Assembly (NCBI GenBank): GCA_007116635.1 | Contig: SKIB01000120.1 | Coordinates: 1-57,193 of the forward strand | Direction: 5' to 3' | DNA from: Saccharospirillaceae bacterium | GTDB lineage: Bacteria > Pseudomonadota > Gammaproteobacteria > Pseudomonadales > Natronospirillaceae | Length of the DNA stretch: 57,193 nt | Shown: positions 51,089 to 57,193 of the stretch, piece after piece | How the letters are laid out: each line of letters begins with the position of its first letter | Numbering within the stretch: the first letter of the stretch is position 1 | The notes under the pieces: generated by a model | Seen by the model: only the letters and a program-made list of their open reading frames with translations | What the model was told of the DNA's origin: nothing | Databases searched by the model: none | Made by a program: the position numbers and the translations under genes

Positions 51089-51343
51089 ATGTCACAAAGC
51101 TTAGCAATAGTGCACAACACAGATCAGCAGTGTTTTTCTTTGGTTCATCAGCCACAAGCAAGGTTGCAATATCGAATAATGCAGGCTAATGAGGTACATT
51201 TTTTTACGGTAGAGGTACCAGAATCACTTCGGGGTCAGGGGGTGGCGGCACTATTGCTTGACTCTGCTTTGGCTTGGGCTACTAATGAAGGCTTGGCAAT
51301 CAGTACCAGTTGCAGTTACATTGCAGCTCGTCTAGCAAAATAA
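51089..51343 (+). CDS. Small GNAT-type acetyltransferase (YjdJ-like)
   Basis: This 84-residue protein is of the short single-domain acetyltransferase kind. The CoA loop is visible as ESLRGQGVAALLLDSALAWA near residue 45, and ISTSCSYIA near 70 holds the conserved Cys-Ser-Tyr. ATG 51089 gives the usual family length of about 90; an upstream start at 51044 would add 15 unrelated residues. The acceptor is unknown. It is divergent from the copper-delivery operon. Confidence 0.8.
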   Translation: MSQSLAIVHNTDQQCFSLVHQPQARLQYRIMQANEVHFFTVEVPESLRGQGVAALLLDSALAWATNEGLAISTSCSYIAARLAK

Positions 51344-51375
51344 ATTTAAAACAAATCATTGTTCTGCTAACTAGG

Positions 51376-51389
51376 TCTCATGCATGAGA
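51376..51389. promoter_or_regulatory. Perfect 14-bp palindrome upstream of the glycan operon
   Basis: TCTCATGCATGAGA is fully symmetrical and lies 61 bases before the first ATG of the four-gene glycosyltransferase operon. It may be an operator, but no promoter elements fix its role. Confidence 0.4.
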
Positions 51390-51450
51390 GCTTGGTTGTG
51401 AGTAGTATTGATTAGTTTCCTGATTAAGATAACGACAAAAAGAGACATCT

Positions 51451-53421
51451 ATGATTAGTCTGATGTATTTATTCATGGCAGTGGTCATTATACTGATTAA
51501 CTTTGCCGCCCTAGGTCTGTTTCTAGAACCCTGGTTTAAAGATCGCAACCAAGCACGTTTCTGGGGCTTTACTCTGTTGGCGCTAGTACTGGTGTTTATG
51601 GGTTATACCCTTGGTTTAGCTCATGTAGCCATGTTGTGGCCTTTGTTTACTGCTGGTTCGGCAGCGCTTTTATGGTCTCGTAGGCAAGAAATTCTCTCTT
51701 TTTGTTTTTGGCGGGAAGATTACGTTTTTTTCGTGGTTTTCTTGTTAGTGCTGGCCATACGTGTGGTCTTCCCAAACATTGCTCCTAACAGCCCACAGAT
51801 GGGCAGTCTGCATCAATTGGCCAGTTTCTATTTTGCGGATGAATTCCCACCTCAAGATCTGTGGTTTGCCAGCGAATACTTTCAGCATCAACCCGGTCTG
51901 ATGGCGGCCATTTTTGCCGTTCAGGGTAAGCTGTTCTCCTTTGGCCCAGGATTAGCCTTTAACATTGCCTTTGCTAGCCTGTTTGCTCTTATGGCAGGCA
52001 TGCTCTGGTCGGCGGCTCGCAATCTGAGCATTGGTTATTGGCAAAGCGCAGGCGCTGTGGCCGTGCTTTTATTGGCCGGTACTGGAATGGCGCCATTAAT
52101 CTGGTTTTTGTTTGAGGCCCGTCCTAGCTTAACTGCTGGAGTAGATTCTGCCAGACAGTTTTGGGAGCACTCTATGCTTTTAGTGGGTGGTCTGGATCAG
52201 TCCTCTCGTTTGGCTGCTTCTGCTGAGACGGCTTCCATGCCCATGCAATCACCGGCCTTTTATTTTGTCACCGGCGTGTTCAGCACCGTTTTACATGGCG
52301 TTTTTATTGCAACGGCCATGCTTAGCACCTATCTGCACGCCACCAAACAAGAGGGCAGGTCGTGCTTCACCTCTCCTTGGTTATTGGTGGGGCTGCTGGT
52401 TCCGGTGGCCTATTTAACCTCTGGCTATGCCTTGGTGTTTGCACTATTGATGGCCGGCTTGGCCATTGTGCGCAAACCATTGCCAGTATTGGTTGGTGTG
52501 CTGCTTGGTACCTTGCTGTGCTTGCCAATGATGATGAGCCTAAGTTCTGGCTTTTCAATGCCTAGCCTGAGTCTGGTAACTGGCCCGCGCGCCTTGGTGC
52601 AACAGCTGTTGTTGTTCTGGCCTTTGCTTCTCATCCTTGTCTTGCTGGTTGCTGGCTTGGTCAGTGCAAACCATGAGCGCAGCGTGCTCAGAACAGTACT
52701 TGAAGCCGCTTTGGTTATTGTGCTGCTGTGGCTCTTTACCCAACTGTACTTCTTTGATGACCTTTATGGTGGCCGCTTTGAGCGCTACAGCACCAGTATC
52801 CACCTATGGACACTGTTGTATTTTGTTGGCTTTGCTTGGCTGTGGTTGCTGTTGGCGGCCAGTAACGTGCGCTGGCAGATGCTCTCTGCTTGGGTCTTGG
52901 CTGTGCCCCTGGTGCTGGCAAACCTGCTGCCCATGTCAATGACCCTGGCGCAGACCGATTACCGCAGTCTGGGTAAAGTTCGTGGCCATCATGCCTTTAC
53001 CTCTGACAACTCCAACGCCGATTTGCTTACCTATCTTCAGGTAGCGCGCCGGGGGGTGATGATCGAATCTCAGGGCGGTGGGGCCAATACCTATACCGGT
53101 CGTTTTTCTCTGTTCTCTGGTCAGCCTAGCTTATTGGCTTGGCCGGATGAACAGCGTGTTTGGCGTGCCAATCATGTGTTAATTAATCAGCTCCAAGAAC
53201 AATTGAAGCTGTTTTATGATGCCGAAATGACGCCTGAGCAGATGTTGGATTTCTTGCAGGCTCATCGTGTGATGCATGTACTGTGGCAGCCTGAAGATGT
53301 ACCAGTGCGCTCAGGGAACTGGCAATACATTCATGATGCCCTATTGGGCCACTATCAATGGGTGCCGTTTTTCGATGATGGCGGTGTGAACAAAGTTGGC
53401 ACCTTTGAGCGACTGAATTAA
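51451..53421 (+). CDS. DUF2298/YYY-type large membrane protein, putative GT-C glycosyltransferase 1
   Basis: This 656-residue protein has about a dozen membrane helices and a soluble C-terminal tail. The loop after helix 3 reads FADEFPPQDLWFASEYFQHQPGLMAAI near residue 130, the position where GT-C enzymes carry an acidic catalytic motif. The C-terminal region has SGQPSLLAWPDEQRVWR near 560, a version of the G-W--H---W pattern of DUF2298 (Chlor_Arch_YYY) proteins. It ends ...HYQWVPFFDDGGVNKVGTFERLN, colinear with the next gene's end, so the two are diverged paralogues. A polyprenyl-phosphate-sugar-dependent transferase is the likely role; donor and acceptor are unknown. Confidence 0.7.
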   Translation: MISLMYLFMAVVIILINFAALGLFLEPWFKDRNQARFWGFTLLALVLVFMGYTLGLAHVAMLWPLFTAGSAALLWSRRQEILSFCFWREDYVFFVVFLLVLAIRVVFPNIAPNSPQMGSLHQLASFYFADEFPPQDLWFASEYFQHQPGLMAAIFAVQGKLFSFGPGLAFNIAFASLFALMAGMLWSAARNLSIGYWQSAGAVAVLLLAGTGMAPLIWFLFEARPSLTAGVDSARQFWEHSMLLVGGLDQSSRLAASAETASMPMQSPAFYFVTGVFSTVLHGVFIATAMLSTYLHATKQEGRSCFTSPWLLVGLLVPVAYLTSGYALVFALLMAGLAIVRKPLPVLVGVLLGTLLCLPMMMSLSSGFSMPSLSLVTGPRALVQQLLLFWPLLLILVLLVAGLVSANHERSVLRTVLEAALVIVLLWLFTQLYFFDDLYGGRFERYSTSIHLWTLLYFVGFAWLWLLLAASNVRWQMLSAWVLAVPLVLANLLPMSMTLAQTDYRSLGKVRGHHAFTSDNSNADLLTYLQVARRGVMIESQGGGANTYTGRFSLFSGQPSLLAWPDEQRVWRANHVLINQLQEQLKLFYDAEMTPEQMLDFLQAHRVMHVLWQPEDVPVRSGNWQYIHDALLGHYQWVPFFDDGGVNKVGTFERLN

Positions 53422-53435
53422 GGCGGAGATACCCT

Positions 53436-55469
53436 ATGATGCATCTAATGAATTTTGCCTTAGTTTTGGCAGTACTGATTAACCTAGCCGCCCTGACTGC
53501 GGTGAGTGGTCGTTTTTTTAACGATTGGGGCATTGCCCGCGCCGCTGGTGTGATCGCCATTACCCTTGGCTTATTTTTTATTGAACACTTTGTCGGTCTT
53601 GGCCAATTCTCATGGCTATGGCCCATCACCACTGCACTGTCGCTCTATATCCTATGGCGTTATCGTCAATCCTTGCTTAATAGAGGGTTTCATTGGGCGG
53701 AATTGGTGTTCGTACTGGCCTTTGCCTACGGCATGCTGTGGCGCTATGCCTTTCCTTCCATTTGGCCTTCCTCGGAGCGAGTAACCAATCTGTATTGGAT
53801 TAACAACTACATGAGTGGTTCGCAGTTGCCGCCTCTGGACCTTTGGCATCCGCCCTACCAGTTCGACTTTTACTATGCCTACATGCATTATGCTGCCGCC
53901 CTGCTGGGCCGTTTGTTTGGTGTTAATGGTGGTGTGGCCTATAACCTTTCCTTCTGTATTTTGCAGGGCATGACCATTGCTCTGGGTTGGTCTTTTGTCA
54001 GTTTGCTGATCAACAAGGCGCTCTGGGTCCGCATCTTTATGGTGGTTATCCTGACCTTTGGCGGTACTGGCCTTTCGCCCTTATCGACCCTGCTGTATGA
54101 GCCCTTTGCCAATGAATCGCCGCAGTCGGTTGCCTATAAAGAAATGACGGTGACCACCCGTTTCATGGGTAATTTTGAGCATCACATCAATACCGATCTT
54201 GGTTTGCGCCTGTTCCCTAGGCTAACAGAAGAGCAAAAACCCTTTGCTGGTTTTGAGCCGCGTGAGCTACCCCTAGAGCATTTTAGCTATCAGTTCTTTG
54301 TGGGTGATTACCATCCGCCCAAGGCTGGTTTCTTCCTCTTGCTACTATTGTTGGCCTGTATTGCCTGGCTGGAGCGTTATCCGGATCGTAATCGTGATCC
54401 TTGGGTGCATGGTTTGATGGCCATGACCGTGCCCTTGATCTTTATTTCAAATACCTGGGTGATGCCTCTGCATGTCATGCTCGGTTTTTTCTGGTTCGTT
54501 TATCGTTTTGTCATCAAGCAGCCACCCAATACCTGGGCCTTGATCTTGGTGGGTTTGTTCGGCTTTGCACTGTTGCAACCCTTTATGGTCGATTTCTCGG
54601 CCAAAAGCCTGTCCACCCCCTTTGCCTTAACTAAGAGTTTTGACCACACACCCATACGTGGCTTCATCTGGCTGTTCTGGCCCTTGTTGTTACTGGCTGC
54701 GGTTGGTCTGAGCCGCTGGCGACAACAGCCCTTGTTGGCAATGTTTACTCTGTATTTTGTGTTCGCTTTGGCCTTTACCGAGTTTATCTATGTTAATGAT
54801 CCTACGGGTGGCAAGTTTGAACGCACTAACTGGGTGATGAAGAGCTGGGGCTGGCTCTGGGTGGCTGCCATTATGTCCATGGGCACTCTACTGCTCAATG
54901 ACAAAGAAAAGTGGGTCAAGGCCTTGGCCTTGGTGGCCATGGTGCCGACCTTGGCCTTTGCTCCTATTTTAGCTAAGGCCTGGTATACCTCACCTAAGAC
55001 GGATTTAGGTCATTTGCAGGGTTACAACATCTTCAGTCGTGACCAGGGCCGCAGCGCCATGCTCAGCTATTTGCAATCACAACCGCCCGGTATTGTTCTG
55101 GAGCGCAGTCCGCGCAATAACAACACCGATGCCACCCTCTACGCCCTGTTTTCAGATAACCCAGCCTCCTATGGTTGGTTTAACCACTTGATCACCTGGC
55201 ATAGTACACGCAGCCATATCATGATCAACAATGATAAGATCCAAAACCTTTATCGTGGCAAGCTTGAGCATGCTGGCTATTGGTTGCAGCAGAGACGTGT
55301 GCGCTATGTGGTTTGGACCATAGACGACAGCCTTAACTCTGAGATGAATTGGCAAGCCATGTACGACAGCATTGCTGATCAGTATGTATGGCTGCCCTTT
55401 GTTGAGCAGGGTGACCGCCGTTTAGGTCTGTTTGTATTTCGAGGTGAGCCTTGGCCAGTACCACACTAA
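53436..55469 (+). CDS. DUF2298/YYY-type large membrane protein, putative GT-C glycosyltransferase 2
   Basis: This 677-residue protein has about twelve membrane helices and a tail of about 140 residues. The loop SGSQLPPLDLWHPPYQFDFYYAYMHYAAALLGRLFG near residue 125 matches the DUF2298 pattern PP-D-W-----N-YY-GH closely. Conserved late features are PPGIVLERSPRNNNTDATL near 545, YGWFNHLITWH near 575 and YVWLPFVEQGDRRLGLFVF near the end. It starts 14 bases after its paralogue and is followed by a GtrA-type gene that begins within or just after its end. It keeps the family motifs better than the first copy. Confidence 0.75.
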   Translation: MMHLMNFALVLAVLINLAALTAVSGRFFNDWGIARAAGVIAITLGLFFIEHFVGLGQFSWLWPITTALSLYILWRYRQSLLNRGFHWAELVFVLAFAYGMLWRYAFPSIWPSSERVTNLYWINNYMSGSQLPPLDLWHPPYQFDFYYAYMHYAAALLGRLFGVNGGVAYNLSFCILQGMTIALGWSFVSLLINKALWVRIFMVVILTFGGTGLSPLSTLLYEPFANESPQSVAYKEMTVTTRFMGNFEHHINTDLGLRLFPRLTEEQKPFAGFEPRELPLEHFSYQFFVGDYHPPKAGFFLLLLLLACIAWLERYPDRNRDPWVHGLMAMTVPLIFISNTWVMPLHVMLGFFWFVYRFVIKQPPNTWALILVGLFGFALLQPFMVDFSAKSLSTPFALTKSFDHTPIRGFIWLFWPLLLLAAVGLSRWRQQPLLAMFTLYFVFALAFTEFIYVNDPTGGKFERTNWVMKSWGWLWVAAIMSMGTLLLNDKEKWVKALALVAMVPTLAFAPILAKAWYTSPKTDLGHLQGYNIFSRDQGRSAMLSYLQSQPPGIVLERSPRNNNTDATLYALFSDNPASYGWFNHLITWHSTRSHIMINNDKIQNLYRGKLEHAGYWLQQRRVRYVVWTIDDSLNSEMNWQAMYDSIADQYVWLPFVEQGDRRLGLFVFRGEPWPVPH

Positions 55470-55480
55470 GCGCTAATCCT

Positions 55481-55870
55481 ATGTTGCAGCAGTTCATTCG
55501 TTTTGCATTGGTTGGGCTAGGTGGTACGGCGGTGCACTACGGCCTGCTGTTGCTGCTGGTGGAGCTAGCCAGCCTAACGGCTCTGTATGCCAGTATGCTG
55601 GGTGCTTTGGCGGGGGCGGTGGTGAACTATTTTTTGAATTACCGTTTTACCTTTGCCAGTACGGCCAAGCACCGCAAGACCATGCCTAAGTTCTTTTTCC
55701 TAGCTGGTCTTGGTTTAAGCCTGAATGCTCTGCTAATGTGGTGGTTGCTGACCTGGCCATTATTCAGTTGGCAATGGTACTACTTAGCGGCACAGATCAT
55801 GGTAACGGCCTTAGTCCTGTTATTTAATTTCTTTGCCAATCGTTTTTGGACTTTTCGGAGTGATCTATGA
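55481..55870 (+). CDS. GtrA-family polyprenyl-phosphate-sugar flippase
   Basis: This protein of about 129 residues has four membrane helices. The N-terminal QQFIRFALVGLGGTAVHYGLLLLL, the VNYFLNYRFTF in the middle and the final LFNFFANRFWTFR are clear GtrA hallmarks. GtrA proteins flip lipid-linked sugars to the periplasmic face. ATG 55481 has no obvious ribosome binding site; TTG 55451 has GAGGTGA upstream and would add 10 residues and overlap the preceding gene. It overlaps the next gene by 4 bases (ATGA). Confidence 0.9.
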   Translation: MLQQFIRFALVGLGGTAVHYGLLLLLVELASLTALYASMLGALAGAVVNYFLNYRFTFASTAKHRKTMPKFFFLAGLGLSLNALLMWWLLTWPLFSWQWYYLAAQIMVTALVLLFNFFANRFWTFRSDL

Positions 55871-56820
55871 AACCACTATTAACCGTTATTGTGCCTGCCT
55901 ACAATGAGCAAGAAGTTTTATTGGAATTTCATCAACGTTTGTCCAAGGTCTTTGATGATTTATCTCCTGAGCTGGATTCTGAAGTGCTTTATGTTAATGA
56001 TGGAAGCAAGGATCGAACCCAAGAAATTTTGGATCGTTTAACCGAACAAGATCAGCGTGTTAGTAGTATTGAACTCAGCCGTAATTTCGGCAAGGAAGCG
56101 GCCATGACCGCTGGCTTTGATTATGCTAAGGGCGATGCGGTGGTCATCATTGACGCCGATTTGCAAGACCCGCCTGAGTTGATCAAGGACATGGTCAGCC
56201 ACTGGCAGCAAGGTTATGACGTTATCTATGCTCAGAGAACGGAGCGAGAAGGTGAAACCTGGTTAAAAAAGGCCACCGCTTCGGCATTCTATCGTCTCAT
56301 TTCCAAAATTTCCAAGGTACAAATTCCGAAGGACACAGGTGATTTCCGTTTGATGAGTCGCCGGGCTGTAGACTCTTTAAACCGTCTGCGTGAGCAGCAT
56401 CGCTTCATGAAGGGTTTGTTTGCCTTTGTGGGCTACCCGCAAAAAGCCTTGCTTTACCATCGTGACGCTCGTGCTGCGGGAGAATCTAAGTTCAACTTTT
56501 GGAAACTATGGAACTTTGCGTTAGAGGGCATTACTAGCTTTACCATTGCACCCTTGAAACTGGCTTCATACATTGGTTTTGCGACTGCTTTTTTTGCCTT
56601 TGTTTATGGTGCTTATGTGGTTTTTAAAACGCTACTATTTGGTGAATCTGTTCCCGGTTATCCCAGTTTGATGGTGGCCATACTGTTTATCGGTGGGGTG
56701 CAGTTACTGTTCATCGGTATTCTTGGTGAGTACATCGGCCGCATCTACAACGAAAGTAAGCAGCGTCCGCTCTACTTCATTCATCAGTATCACCAAGCCA
56801 AGTCCTCACGCCGGGACTAG
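55867..56820 (+). CDS. GtrB/DPM1-like family 2 glycosyltransferase
   Basis: This 317-residue enzyme has the GT2 N-terminal domain (VIVPAYNEQEVL near residue 8, YVNDGSKDRT near 42, LSRNFGKEAAMTAGFDYAKGD near 75) with the DXD-like motif IDADLQDPPEL near 98. Two C-terminal membrane helices lie at about residues 232-252 and 268-290. It belongs to the group that transfers a sugar from a nucleotide donor to polyprenyl phosphate. It would supply the lipid-linked sugar that GtrA flips and the two GT-C candidates use. It closes the operon. Confidence 0.93.
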   Translation: MKPLLTVIVPAYNEQEVLLEFHQRLSKVFDDLSPELDSEVLYVNDGSKDRTQEILDRLTEQDQRVSSIELSRNFGKEAAMTAGFDYAKGDAVVIIDADLQDPPELIKDMVSHWQQGYDVIYAQRTEREGETWLKKATASAFYRLISKISKVQIPKDTGDFRLMSRRAVDSLNRLREQHRFMKGLFAFVGYPQKALLYHRDARAAGESKFNFWKLWNFALEGITSFTIAPLKLASYIGFATAFFAFVYGAYVVFKTLLFGESVPGYPSLMVAILFIGGVQLLFIGILGEYIGRIYNESKQRPLYFIHQYHQAKSSRRD

Positions 56821-56841
56821 GCTCTTTTTCAGCGTCCGTCA

Positions 56842-56868
56842 GTCACCCTGCGCGAAGTCGCAGGGTCC
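56842..56868. repeat. Short intergenic hairpin repeat, copy 3
   Basis: This copy has GTCAC, then CCTGCG-CGAAGT-CGCAGG, then GTCC, one base different from copies 1 and 2 in the loop. It lies 21 bases after the glycosyltransferase stop codon. Confidence 0.75.
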
Positions 56869-56899
56869 CATAGATTTTCACTCAGCGCCCACTGTCACC

Positions 56900-57117
56900 A
56901 TGACGCCAGCCACAAAACCAGCCCAATAAGCGGGCTGGGAACTGGGATCGAGGGGTGTCGGCGGCCAGGGATGGACGCCGTCAAGCGGTCAGGACGACGA
57001 ACAGCGACCACGAGAGCGCAGTTGCCAGACCAGTGACTGGGCGGGAAAGGGTAGTCCCGAACAACCCAAAGAGATCCTGCGACTGCGCGCAGGATGACGC
57101 CAGCCACAAAAACAGCC
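56900..57117. repeat. 24-bp direct repeat pair in the right-hand gap
   Basis: ATGACGCCAGCCACAAAA plus ACAGCC/CCAGCC occurs at 56900-56923 and again at 57094-57117, 23 of 24 bases identical. The pair encloses 170 bases of GC-rich sequence. The whole 373-base stretch 56821-57193 has no gene I can support: it holds this pair and two copies of the hairpin repeat, and runs off the window. Confidence 0.7.
57071..57098. repeat. Short intergenic hairpin repeat, copy 4 (inverted)
   Basis: This copy is in the opposite orientation to the other three: its reverse complement reads GTCAT, CCTGCG-CGCAGT-CGCAGG, ATCTC. It overlaps the second unit of the 24-bp direct repeat by five bases. Confidence 0.75.
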
Positions 57118-57193
57118 AAGCGAAGGGCGACAAACGCCAGTCTTGGAAACTACCAGTTGTGGTTGGGTATCAGTGCTGATGACCACCCTTGGC

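Follow-up and report, generated by a model that had tools for sequence, protein, structure and literature searches.

A DUF2298 gene pair linked to gtrA and gtrB in a Saccharospirillaceae genome: a predicted three-component periplasmic glycosylation system with a putative non-catalytic partner

The DNA examined was contig SKIB01000120.1 (C20) of a Saccharospirillaceae bacterium, hereafter the window (57,193 bases), from a genome of 2.5 Mb in 146 contigs. Its analysis revealed an operon of four genes, A, B, gtrA and gtrB, which probably encodes a three-component periplasmic glycosylation system of the GtrA/GtrB/GT-C type, in which the DUF2298 protein B would be the transferase and its diverged paralogue A a non-catalytic partner (a reading to which we give a probability of roughly 0.6). 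According to this proposal, GtrB, acting at the cytoplasmic side, would take a sugar, which is most likely glucose, from its nucleotide-activated form and place it on undecaprenyl phosphate (UndP), and GtrA would help the UndP-sugar across the inner membrane. The predicted GT-C-type glycosyltransferase B, with its active site in periplasmic loops, would then pass the sugar to an acceptor outside, and A would serve B as non-catalytic partner, by forming a heterodimer, binding the acceptor or routing the donor.

The gene cluster and its recurrence

Open reading frame (ORF) calling revealed that the four genes are intact and lie on the plus strand between positions 51451 and 56820. Gene A (51451..53421) encodes a predicted GT-C-type membrane protein of 656 amino acids, and gene B (53436..55469) a predicted GT-C glycosyltransferase of 677 amino acids in which the family motifs are intact. 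Both proteins scored above the Pfam gathering score of 27.8 bits for DUF2298 (PF10060), with 32.8 bits for A (E 4.8e-8) and 92.9 bits for B (E 2.9e-26), and an alignment of the two proteins spans the entire length of both, with 27% identity (E 1e-55). The third gene, gtrA (55451..55870), begins with a TTG codon and encodes a candidate UndP-sugar flippase (PF04138, E 1.3e-25), and the fourth, gtrB (55867..56820), encodes a predicted polyprenyl-phosphate glycosyltransferase of the GT2 family (E 8.9e-36).

The spacing between A and B is 14 bp, B and gtrA overlap by 19 bp, and gtrA and gtrB overlap by 4 bp. The sequence GAGGTGA is found immediately upstream of the TTG start of gtrA, and GGAG- or GAGG-type bases, read by eye, lie close upstream of B, gtrA and gtrB. 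In positions 51300-57193, a promoter scan found 5 candidates against 5.3 expected, none of them on the plus strand, and a terminator scan found 16 against 8.7 expected, one of which (56801-56818) falls at the 3' end of gtrB. The contig extends 373 bp beyond that gene. An earlier sequence-only reading of this DNA had described two large diverged polytopic proteins followed by GtrA and GtrB, coupled by short gaps or overlaps, and the ORF coordinates confirm this layout. Its assignment of both large proteins to the DUF2298 type also held in the Pfam search that it had proposed, while the word "fused" in its title was wrong, as A, B, gtrA and gtrB are separate adjacent genes.

From their sequences, GtrA is the predicted flippase and GtrB the predicted polyprenyl-phosphate glycosyltransferase of a three-component system. 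The closest solved structure to GtrB was that of the Synechocystis protein (SynGtrB, sll0501, PDB 5ekp; E 5e-106), which makes UndP-glucose from uridine diphosphate (UDP)-glucose (PMC4728340). The active site of SynGtrB is shown to contain D94, D96, R122, D157 and R200, with D157 as the putative catalytic acid (PMC4728340), and alignment revealed the same residue at all five positions in the window's GtrB, with a numbering offset of 23 that was worked out by hand. Compared with the PgfS profile NF047588, this GtrB scored 315 bits, below the cut-off of 500.

Genomes in the samples searched are referred to below by number. DUF2298 matches above the cut-off were found in seven of them, namely the window genome, Salinibius halmophilus (G020), G222, G297, G325, G538 and G1053, among which two pairs share a genus; sub-threshold matches in G208, G599, G913, G928 and G1005 were excluded from all counts. 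S. halmophilus is from the same family as the window genome (Gammaproteobacteria, Saccharospirillaceae in the NCBI taxonomy). The domain is rare in the Pseudomonadota sampled, with matches above the cut-off in 2 of the 22 genomes sampled from the family, in 4 of 293 from the order, 3 of 369 from the class and 1 of 398 from the phylum, as well as in 1 of 40 genomes of the family of G538 and 2 of 4 of the family of G325, in samples that overlap and that each contain the positive genome on which they are centred.

Genomic context analysis showed that gtrA and gtrB adjoin DUF2298 in six of the seven genomes. The order A-B-GtrA-GtrB is shared by the window genome and S. halmophilus, DUF2298-GtrB-GtrA occurs in G222 and G297, and DUF2298-GtrA-GtrB in G325 and G1053 (the latter by tblastn). 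Because the linkage recurs in this way, a chance neighbourhood was rejected, and the neighbourhood survey suggested by the sequence-only reading thus indicates that the gtrAB association is not accidental. Tandem DUF2298 pairs are present in three of the seven genomes. The S. halmophilus proteins share 75% (GtrB), 41% (GtrA), 40% (B) and 28% (A) identity with those of the window, and a scan of genome contigs gave a single locus, that of Salinibius. The DUF2298-linked GtrA is the only GtrA of its genome in each of the five genomes counted (the window genome, G020, G222, G297 and G325), and GtrA is present in 129 of the 293 order-sample genomes. Relatives of DUF2298 were found neither on plasmids nor in viral contigs.

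Three further observations concern the surroundings of these genes. A YjbH-family exopolysaccharide gene (L028, 14593-16686, plus strand) is located downstream of DUF2298-GtrA-GtrB in G325, with two small ORFs between, and is a clue to the acceptor. In Salinibius, a protein of 279 amino acids with a signal-like start is encoded directly after gtrB (L015, 13622-14461, plus strand); a Pfam search with this protein gave no hit with an E of 0.01 or less. The window genome carries a third DUF2298 gene, of 665 amino acids and with the family motifs present, on contig C93 (L008, 4829-6826, plus strand), where no gtrAB is adjacent.

Predicted GT-C character of B

Structural comparison of a low-confidence AlphaFold model pointed to a GT-C fold for B. 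In a Foldseek search with this model, seven of the first 10 rows were STT3/OST, DPY19 or PglB, none of them significant. When the 994 chains picked by Foldseek were re-aligned with VIA-align, the top 27 of the 50 rows shown for B were GT-C enzymes or GT-C-containing complexes, with Z scores of 9.6-6.4, root-mean-square deviations (rmsd) of 4.4-12.5 and 198-338 residues aligned, and the first unrelated row had a Z of 5.9. These rows comprised STT3/OST, AftA, PglB, Pmt4, AglB, Pmt1-Pmt2, AftD, ALG12, DPY19 and the glycosylphosphatidylinositol (GPI) transamidase, the identity of the chain being deduced for 9n9j_I and 9ub7_B. For 26 of these 27 rows the aligned region of B starts between residues 70 and 87, pointing to about three additional N-terminal helices that would precede the GT-C core.

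The charge distribution around the helix at residues 87-105 was consistent in all 10 DUF2298 sequences: lysine plus arginine exceed aspartate plus glutamate in the loop preceding it, and the reverse is true of stretch 105-145 after it, so that the acidic loop is predicted to be periplasmic by the charge rule. As delimited by alignment and charge, residues 106-144 of B make up its first periplasmic loop (53751..53867, plus strand), which holds the motifs ERVTNLY and LPPLDLW and the start of FDFYYA. It also contains E114, which is identical in all eight sequences counted besides A. An acidic motif in the first extracytoplasmic loop is essential in GT-C enzymes (PMC6801728), and by analogy E114 is the predicted catalytic acid of B. 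In A, the equivalent codon 115 (51793..51795, plus strand) encodes proline, the residue being glutamate in the eight other sequences, B included. The sequence-only reading had named both proteins as GT-C candidates and had pointed to an acid in the first loop as a check. These ideas stand in part: the low-confidence model of B ranks GT-C proteins first and B has E114, but the sequence searches gave no significant match to a characterised GT-C, the low-confidence model of A shows no clear GT-C core, and A lacks the acid.

In a different explanation, the DUF2298 proteins would be transporters, polymerases or scaffolds of the GtrAB pathway and the true GT-C would be encoded elsewhere. In its favour, the Pfam, PDB sequence and PDB profile searches gave no significant match of DUF2298 proteins to any characterised GT-C (a PDB sequence search with B gave no hit with an E of 1 or less), and the GtrB-GtrA pair of G538 is located on another contig together with a protein whose PMT_2 match is just below the Pfam cut-off. 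This explanation is nevertheless highly improbable, given that six of seven genomes put DUF2298 at the place of the GT-C in three-component systems, that B has GT-C proteins as its first structural neighbours (low-confidence model), and that the acidic loop 1 is conserved. With respect to PMT_2, the sub-threshold DUF2298 match of G208 was found to sit in a PMT_2-type protein (L029, 10018-11334, plus strand), a faint sequence hint that the two families may be related.

Loss of conserved residues in A

The conservation of A was assessed in a 10-row DUF2298 alignment, from which the near-duplicate row of G297 was left out for column counts. Of the 52 columns that are invariant in the eight other sequences, 28 are broken in A. 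Leaving out each of these eight in turn gave 0 to 9 broken columns out of 24 to 33 (B 0/24; G325 9/33; C93 copy 4/28; G538 pair 0/24 and 3/27), with A in the reference and hence fewer columns to count. With A outside the reference, the columns kept were 52 of 54 in Salinibius A, 52 of 62 in the C93 copy, 52 of 68 in G325 and 52 of 55 in B, as compared to 24 of 52 in A itself. Mean identity was 24.2% for A, 26.2% for G325 and 27.6% for the C93 copy, and the latter two are thus nearly as divergent as A.

Among aspartate, glutamate, histidine, lysine, arginine and asparagine positions (B numbering), A has lost E50, H51, E114, R159, R242, E281, D291, H293, N339, N465, K469 and H584, and has kept D135, D455, R463, E556 and D631; D135 is a conserved aspartate further along the first loop. 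Retention was 5 of 17 in this class, 17 of 23 for glycine, proline and tryptophan and 2 of 12 for the remaining residues, and the heavier loss in the first class than in the second was significant when these two were compared (Fisher p 0.0095). By region, retention in A was 17 of 42 columns for the membrane part and 7 of 10 for the C-terminal part. The pattern fits a protein that would have been retained for its shape after the loss of its chemistry.

These losses run counter to the proposal of the sequence-only reading that two catalytic GT-Cs act in sequence, since the first-loop acid is among the 28 broken columns; a paired GT-C arrangement, which it had offered as well, still fits. A related explanation holds that A, like B, is an active GT-C, the two adding sequential sugars or making two linkages from one UndP-sugar. 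Both Salinibius copies keep the motifs, both tandem copies of G538 keep nearly all invariant columns, and in G222 and G297 a gene of the ALG10 type (see below) lies beside DUF2298 and GtrBA, so that two predicted GT-Cs with one GtrAB recur. For the window's pair we consider this unlikely, since A has no equivalents of E114, R242, D291, H293, N339, N465 and K469 and would need a rebuilt active site.

Phylogenetic analysis revealed that A groups with Salinibius A and the C93 DUF2298 protein (support 99/97), and B with Salinibius B (96/96). The branch of A is very long, with 2.1 changes per column, and the tree tool cautions that the position of long rows is uncertain. A recent local duplication giving rise to A and B was rejected (p-AU 2.8e-5 for a tree holding A and B together), and the paralogy of the two is old. 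In the unrooted tree, the two genes of the G538 tandem are divided between the A side (first gene) and the B side (second gene) with a support of 91/94, which is below the mark set by the tool. A single old A-B pair that includes G538 is possible, and a separate duplication in G538 had a p-AU of 0.16 and was not rejected.

The long branch of A is also what would be expected if A were a functionless decaying gene and B the sole transferase, as in the systems of G325 and G1053 with one DUF2298. Broken ALG10-like genes in the window genome and in Salinibius indicate that related genes erode in the family, and the DUF2298 protein on C93, which bears the motifs and lies on the A side of the tree, could have replaced A. 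On the other hand, the 656 codons of A include no stop, where 25.8 would be expected if codons were drawn at random from its composition, and its codon usage matches that of its neighbours, with a correlation of 0.87 versus 0.77-0.80 in two wrong frames, which is a modest contrast. Its glycine, proline and tryptophan positions are, in addition, preferentially kept. Decay of A thus appears distinctly unlikely, and of the three readings of its sequence, that of a non-catalytic partner of B is the most likely.

ALG10-type genes, donor sugar and comparison with known systems

A DIE2/ALG10 homologue is located immediately upstream of DUF2298 in G222 (L026, 11779-13077, minus strand; intact, E 1.4e-29) and in G297. 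A second intact homologue of G222 (L041, 8736-9983, plus strand; E 7.2e-32) is followed by a membrane protein matching PTPS_related, and another intact homologue lies at L042, 8510-9718 (plus strand; E 3.1e-27). In the window genome, a gene of this type (L008, 6901-8156, minus strand) is convergent to the C93 DUF2298 gene and is interrupted by stop codons, and in Salinibius (L040, 7880-9142, minus strand) it carries one internal TAG; an assembly error may be an alternative cause of these interruptions. The ALG10 search covered the order sample, with G325, G538 and G1053 outside it, and gave matches over the cut-off in 5 of 293 genomes, namely all four DUF2298 genomes and G037. By genus, the co-occurrence was 3/3 versus 4/119 (hypergeometric p 1.5e-5, in a post hoc test uncorrected for kinship). 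The co-occurrence of ALG10 and DUF2298 is new in this analysis.

The ALG10 of eukaryotes is a dolichyl phosphate-glucose-dependent glucosyltransferase (PMC6801728). Because of the ALG10 co-occurrence and the match of GtrB to SynGtrB, glucose is favoured as the sugar, and by analogy UndP-glucose is a plausible donor. A glucan would be a possible product of the window's operon, as a pair resembling GtrA-GtrB is needed for a homopolysaccharide glucan in Lactobacillus johnsonii (PMC7117936). A broader scheme may also be considered, in which a DUF2298 heteromer with a catalytically dead paralogue would act together with bacterial ALG10-type enzymes in a periplasmic UndP-glucose pathway of several GT-Cs, partly parallel to glucosylation in the lumen of the endoplasmic reticulum; we regard it as tentative and would expect it to fail sooner than to hold.

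Several results weigh against the proposed system of a transferase B with a non-catalytic partner A. The AlphaFold models, built from 4-row alignments, are of low confidence, with a mean predicted local distance difference test score (pLDDT) of 46.9 and a predicted template modelling score (pTM) of 0.43 for B and a mean pLDDT of 49.0 for A. Foldseek gave nothing at E up to 0.001 with either model (best E for B, 0.12), and the tool note of VIA-align states that Z values below about 13 can reflect common helix arrangements. With the low-confidence model of A, VIA-align gave mostly short channel-helix matches and no clear GT-C core; DPY19 was matched at Z 6.0 (rmsd 14.9, 276 residues) and the C-terminal domain of AglB at Z 6.5 (rmsd 3.7, 107 residues). 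Since this model was made in the same way as that of B, the same result argues that the GT-C rows of B are not a default of the method. A PDB profile search with the 10 DUF2298 sequences yielded no relative and one unrelated chain (E 5.4), and hhalign gave a probability of 1.8% for the DUF2298 and ALG10-like profiles. A computed table lists DUF2298 under "electron transport chain" (PMC12828279), which does not fit a role in glycosylation. In addition, the tandem DUF2298 pair of G538 is without adjacent gtrAB and has a PMT_2 gene on the opposite strand. As for A, its erosion is seen in one sequence of this variant, the role of the lost residues is read from conservation alone, and the loss of R159 is mild (R to K). 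The interrupted ALG10-like genes may also mean that the system is changing or decaying in the family.

The recurrent linkage to gtrAB gives DUF2298, a domain also found in archaea, a testable role as an UndP-sugar-dependent transferase, and the eroded A represents a natural experiment that could show which features a GT-C pair requires. The link between DUF2298 and ALG10 bears on the published statement that Alg10 and the other lumenal transferases appear to be confined to eukaryotes, the distant hits in prokaryotes being mostly of the PMT and DUF2029 type (PMC4973528).

Among the closest known proteins are the DUF2298/YYY proteins of archaea and Chloroflexi (TIGR03662, chlor_Arch_YYY). PF10060 matches were also obtained in Haloferax volcanii and Methanosarcina acetivorans, and in Chloroflexi bacterium 44-23 a gene labelled DUF2298 lies beside PMT2 genes (PMC8756737). 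A and B resemble the YYY proteins in belonging to PF10060 and differ from them in that B scored 96.3 bits over part of the TIGR03662 profile, below the NCBI cut-off of 300, and A gave no match to it. No experimentally assigned DUF2298 function was found in the literature searched; PMC4343526 was dropped as a source on YYY proteins, its term being the Y_Y_Y domain.

The closest functional parallel is the O-antigen glucosylation of Shigella, Salmonella and Escherichia, where GtrA is the proposed flippase, GtrB the UndP-glucose synthase and a dedicated GT-C the third component (PMC11127046). The window's operon would share with these GtrA/GtrB/Gtr(type) systems the trio of GtrB, GtrA and GT-C, the last being predicted here, and differs from them in that the predicted GT-C is a DUF2298 protein, in a diverged pair of which one copy is apparently without active-site residues. 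Among eukaryotes, Pmt1 and Pmt2 are GT-C paralogues that work as a pair, and PIG-U in the GPI transamidase is a protein of GT-C fold that is not a transferase. A and B, whose contact is putative, would be comparable to these as paired paralogues of GT-C fold, one of them possibly a non-transferase, and differ in being bacterial and of another family.

The sequence-only reading had considered the paired arrangement with GtrAB to be new, which stands only in part, because a GtrB-type enzyme with two paralogous membrane proteins has a precedent in the pgf genes of Streptococcus mutans (PgfS, PgfM1, PgfM2 and PgfE; PMC5856776). The S. mutans system is Gram-positive, includes an epimerase and, in the part of that source consulted, is described with no GtrA named. 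It is likened to the window's operon by description, and both combine a GtrB-like GT2 enzyme with two paralogous polytopic membrane proteins.

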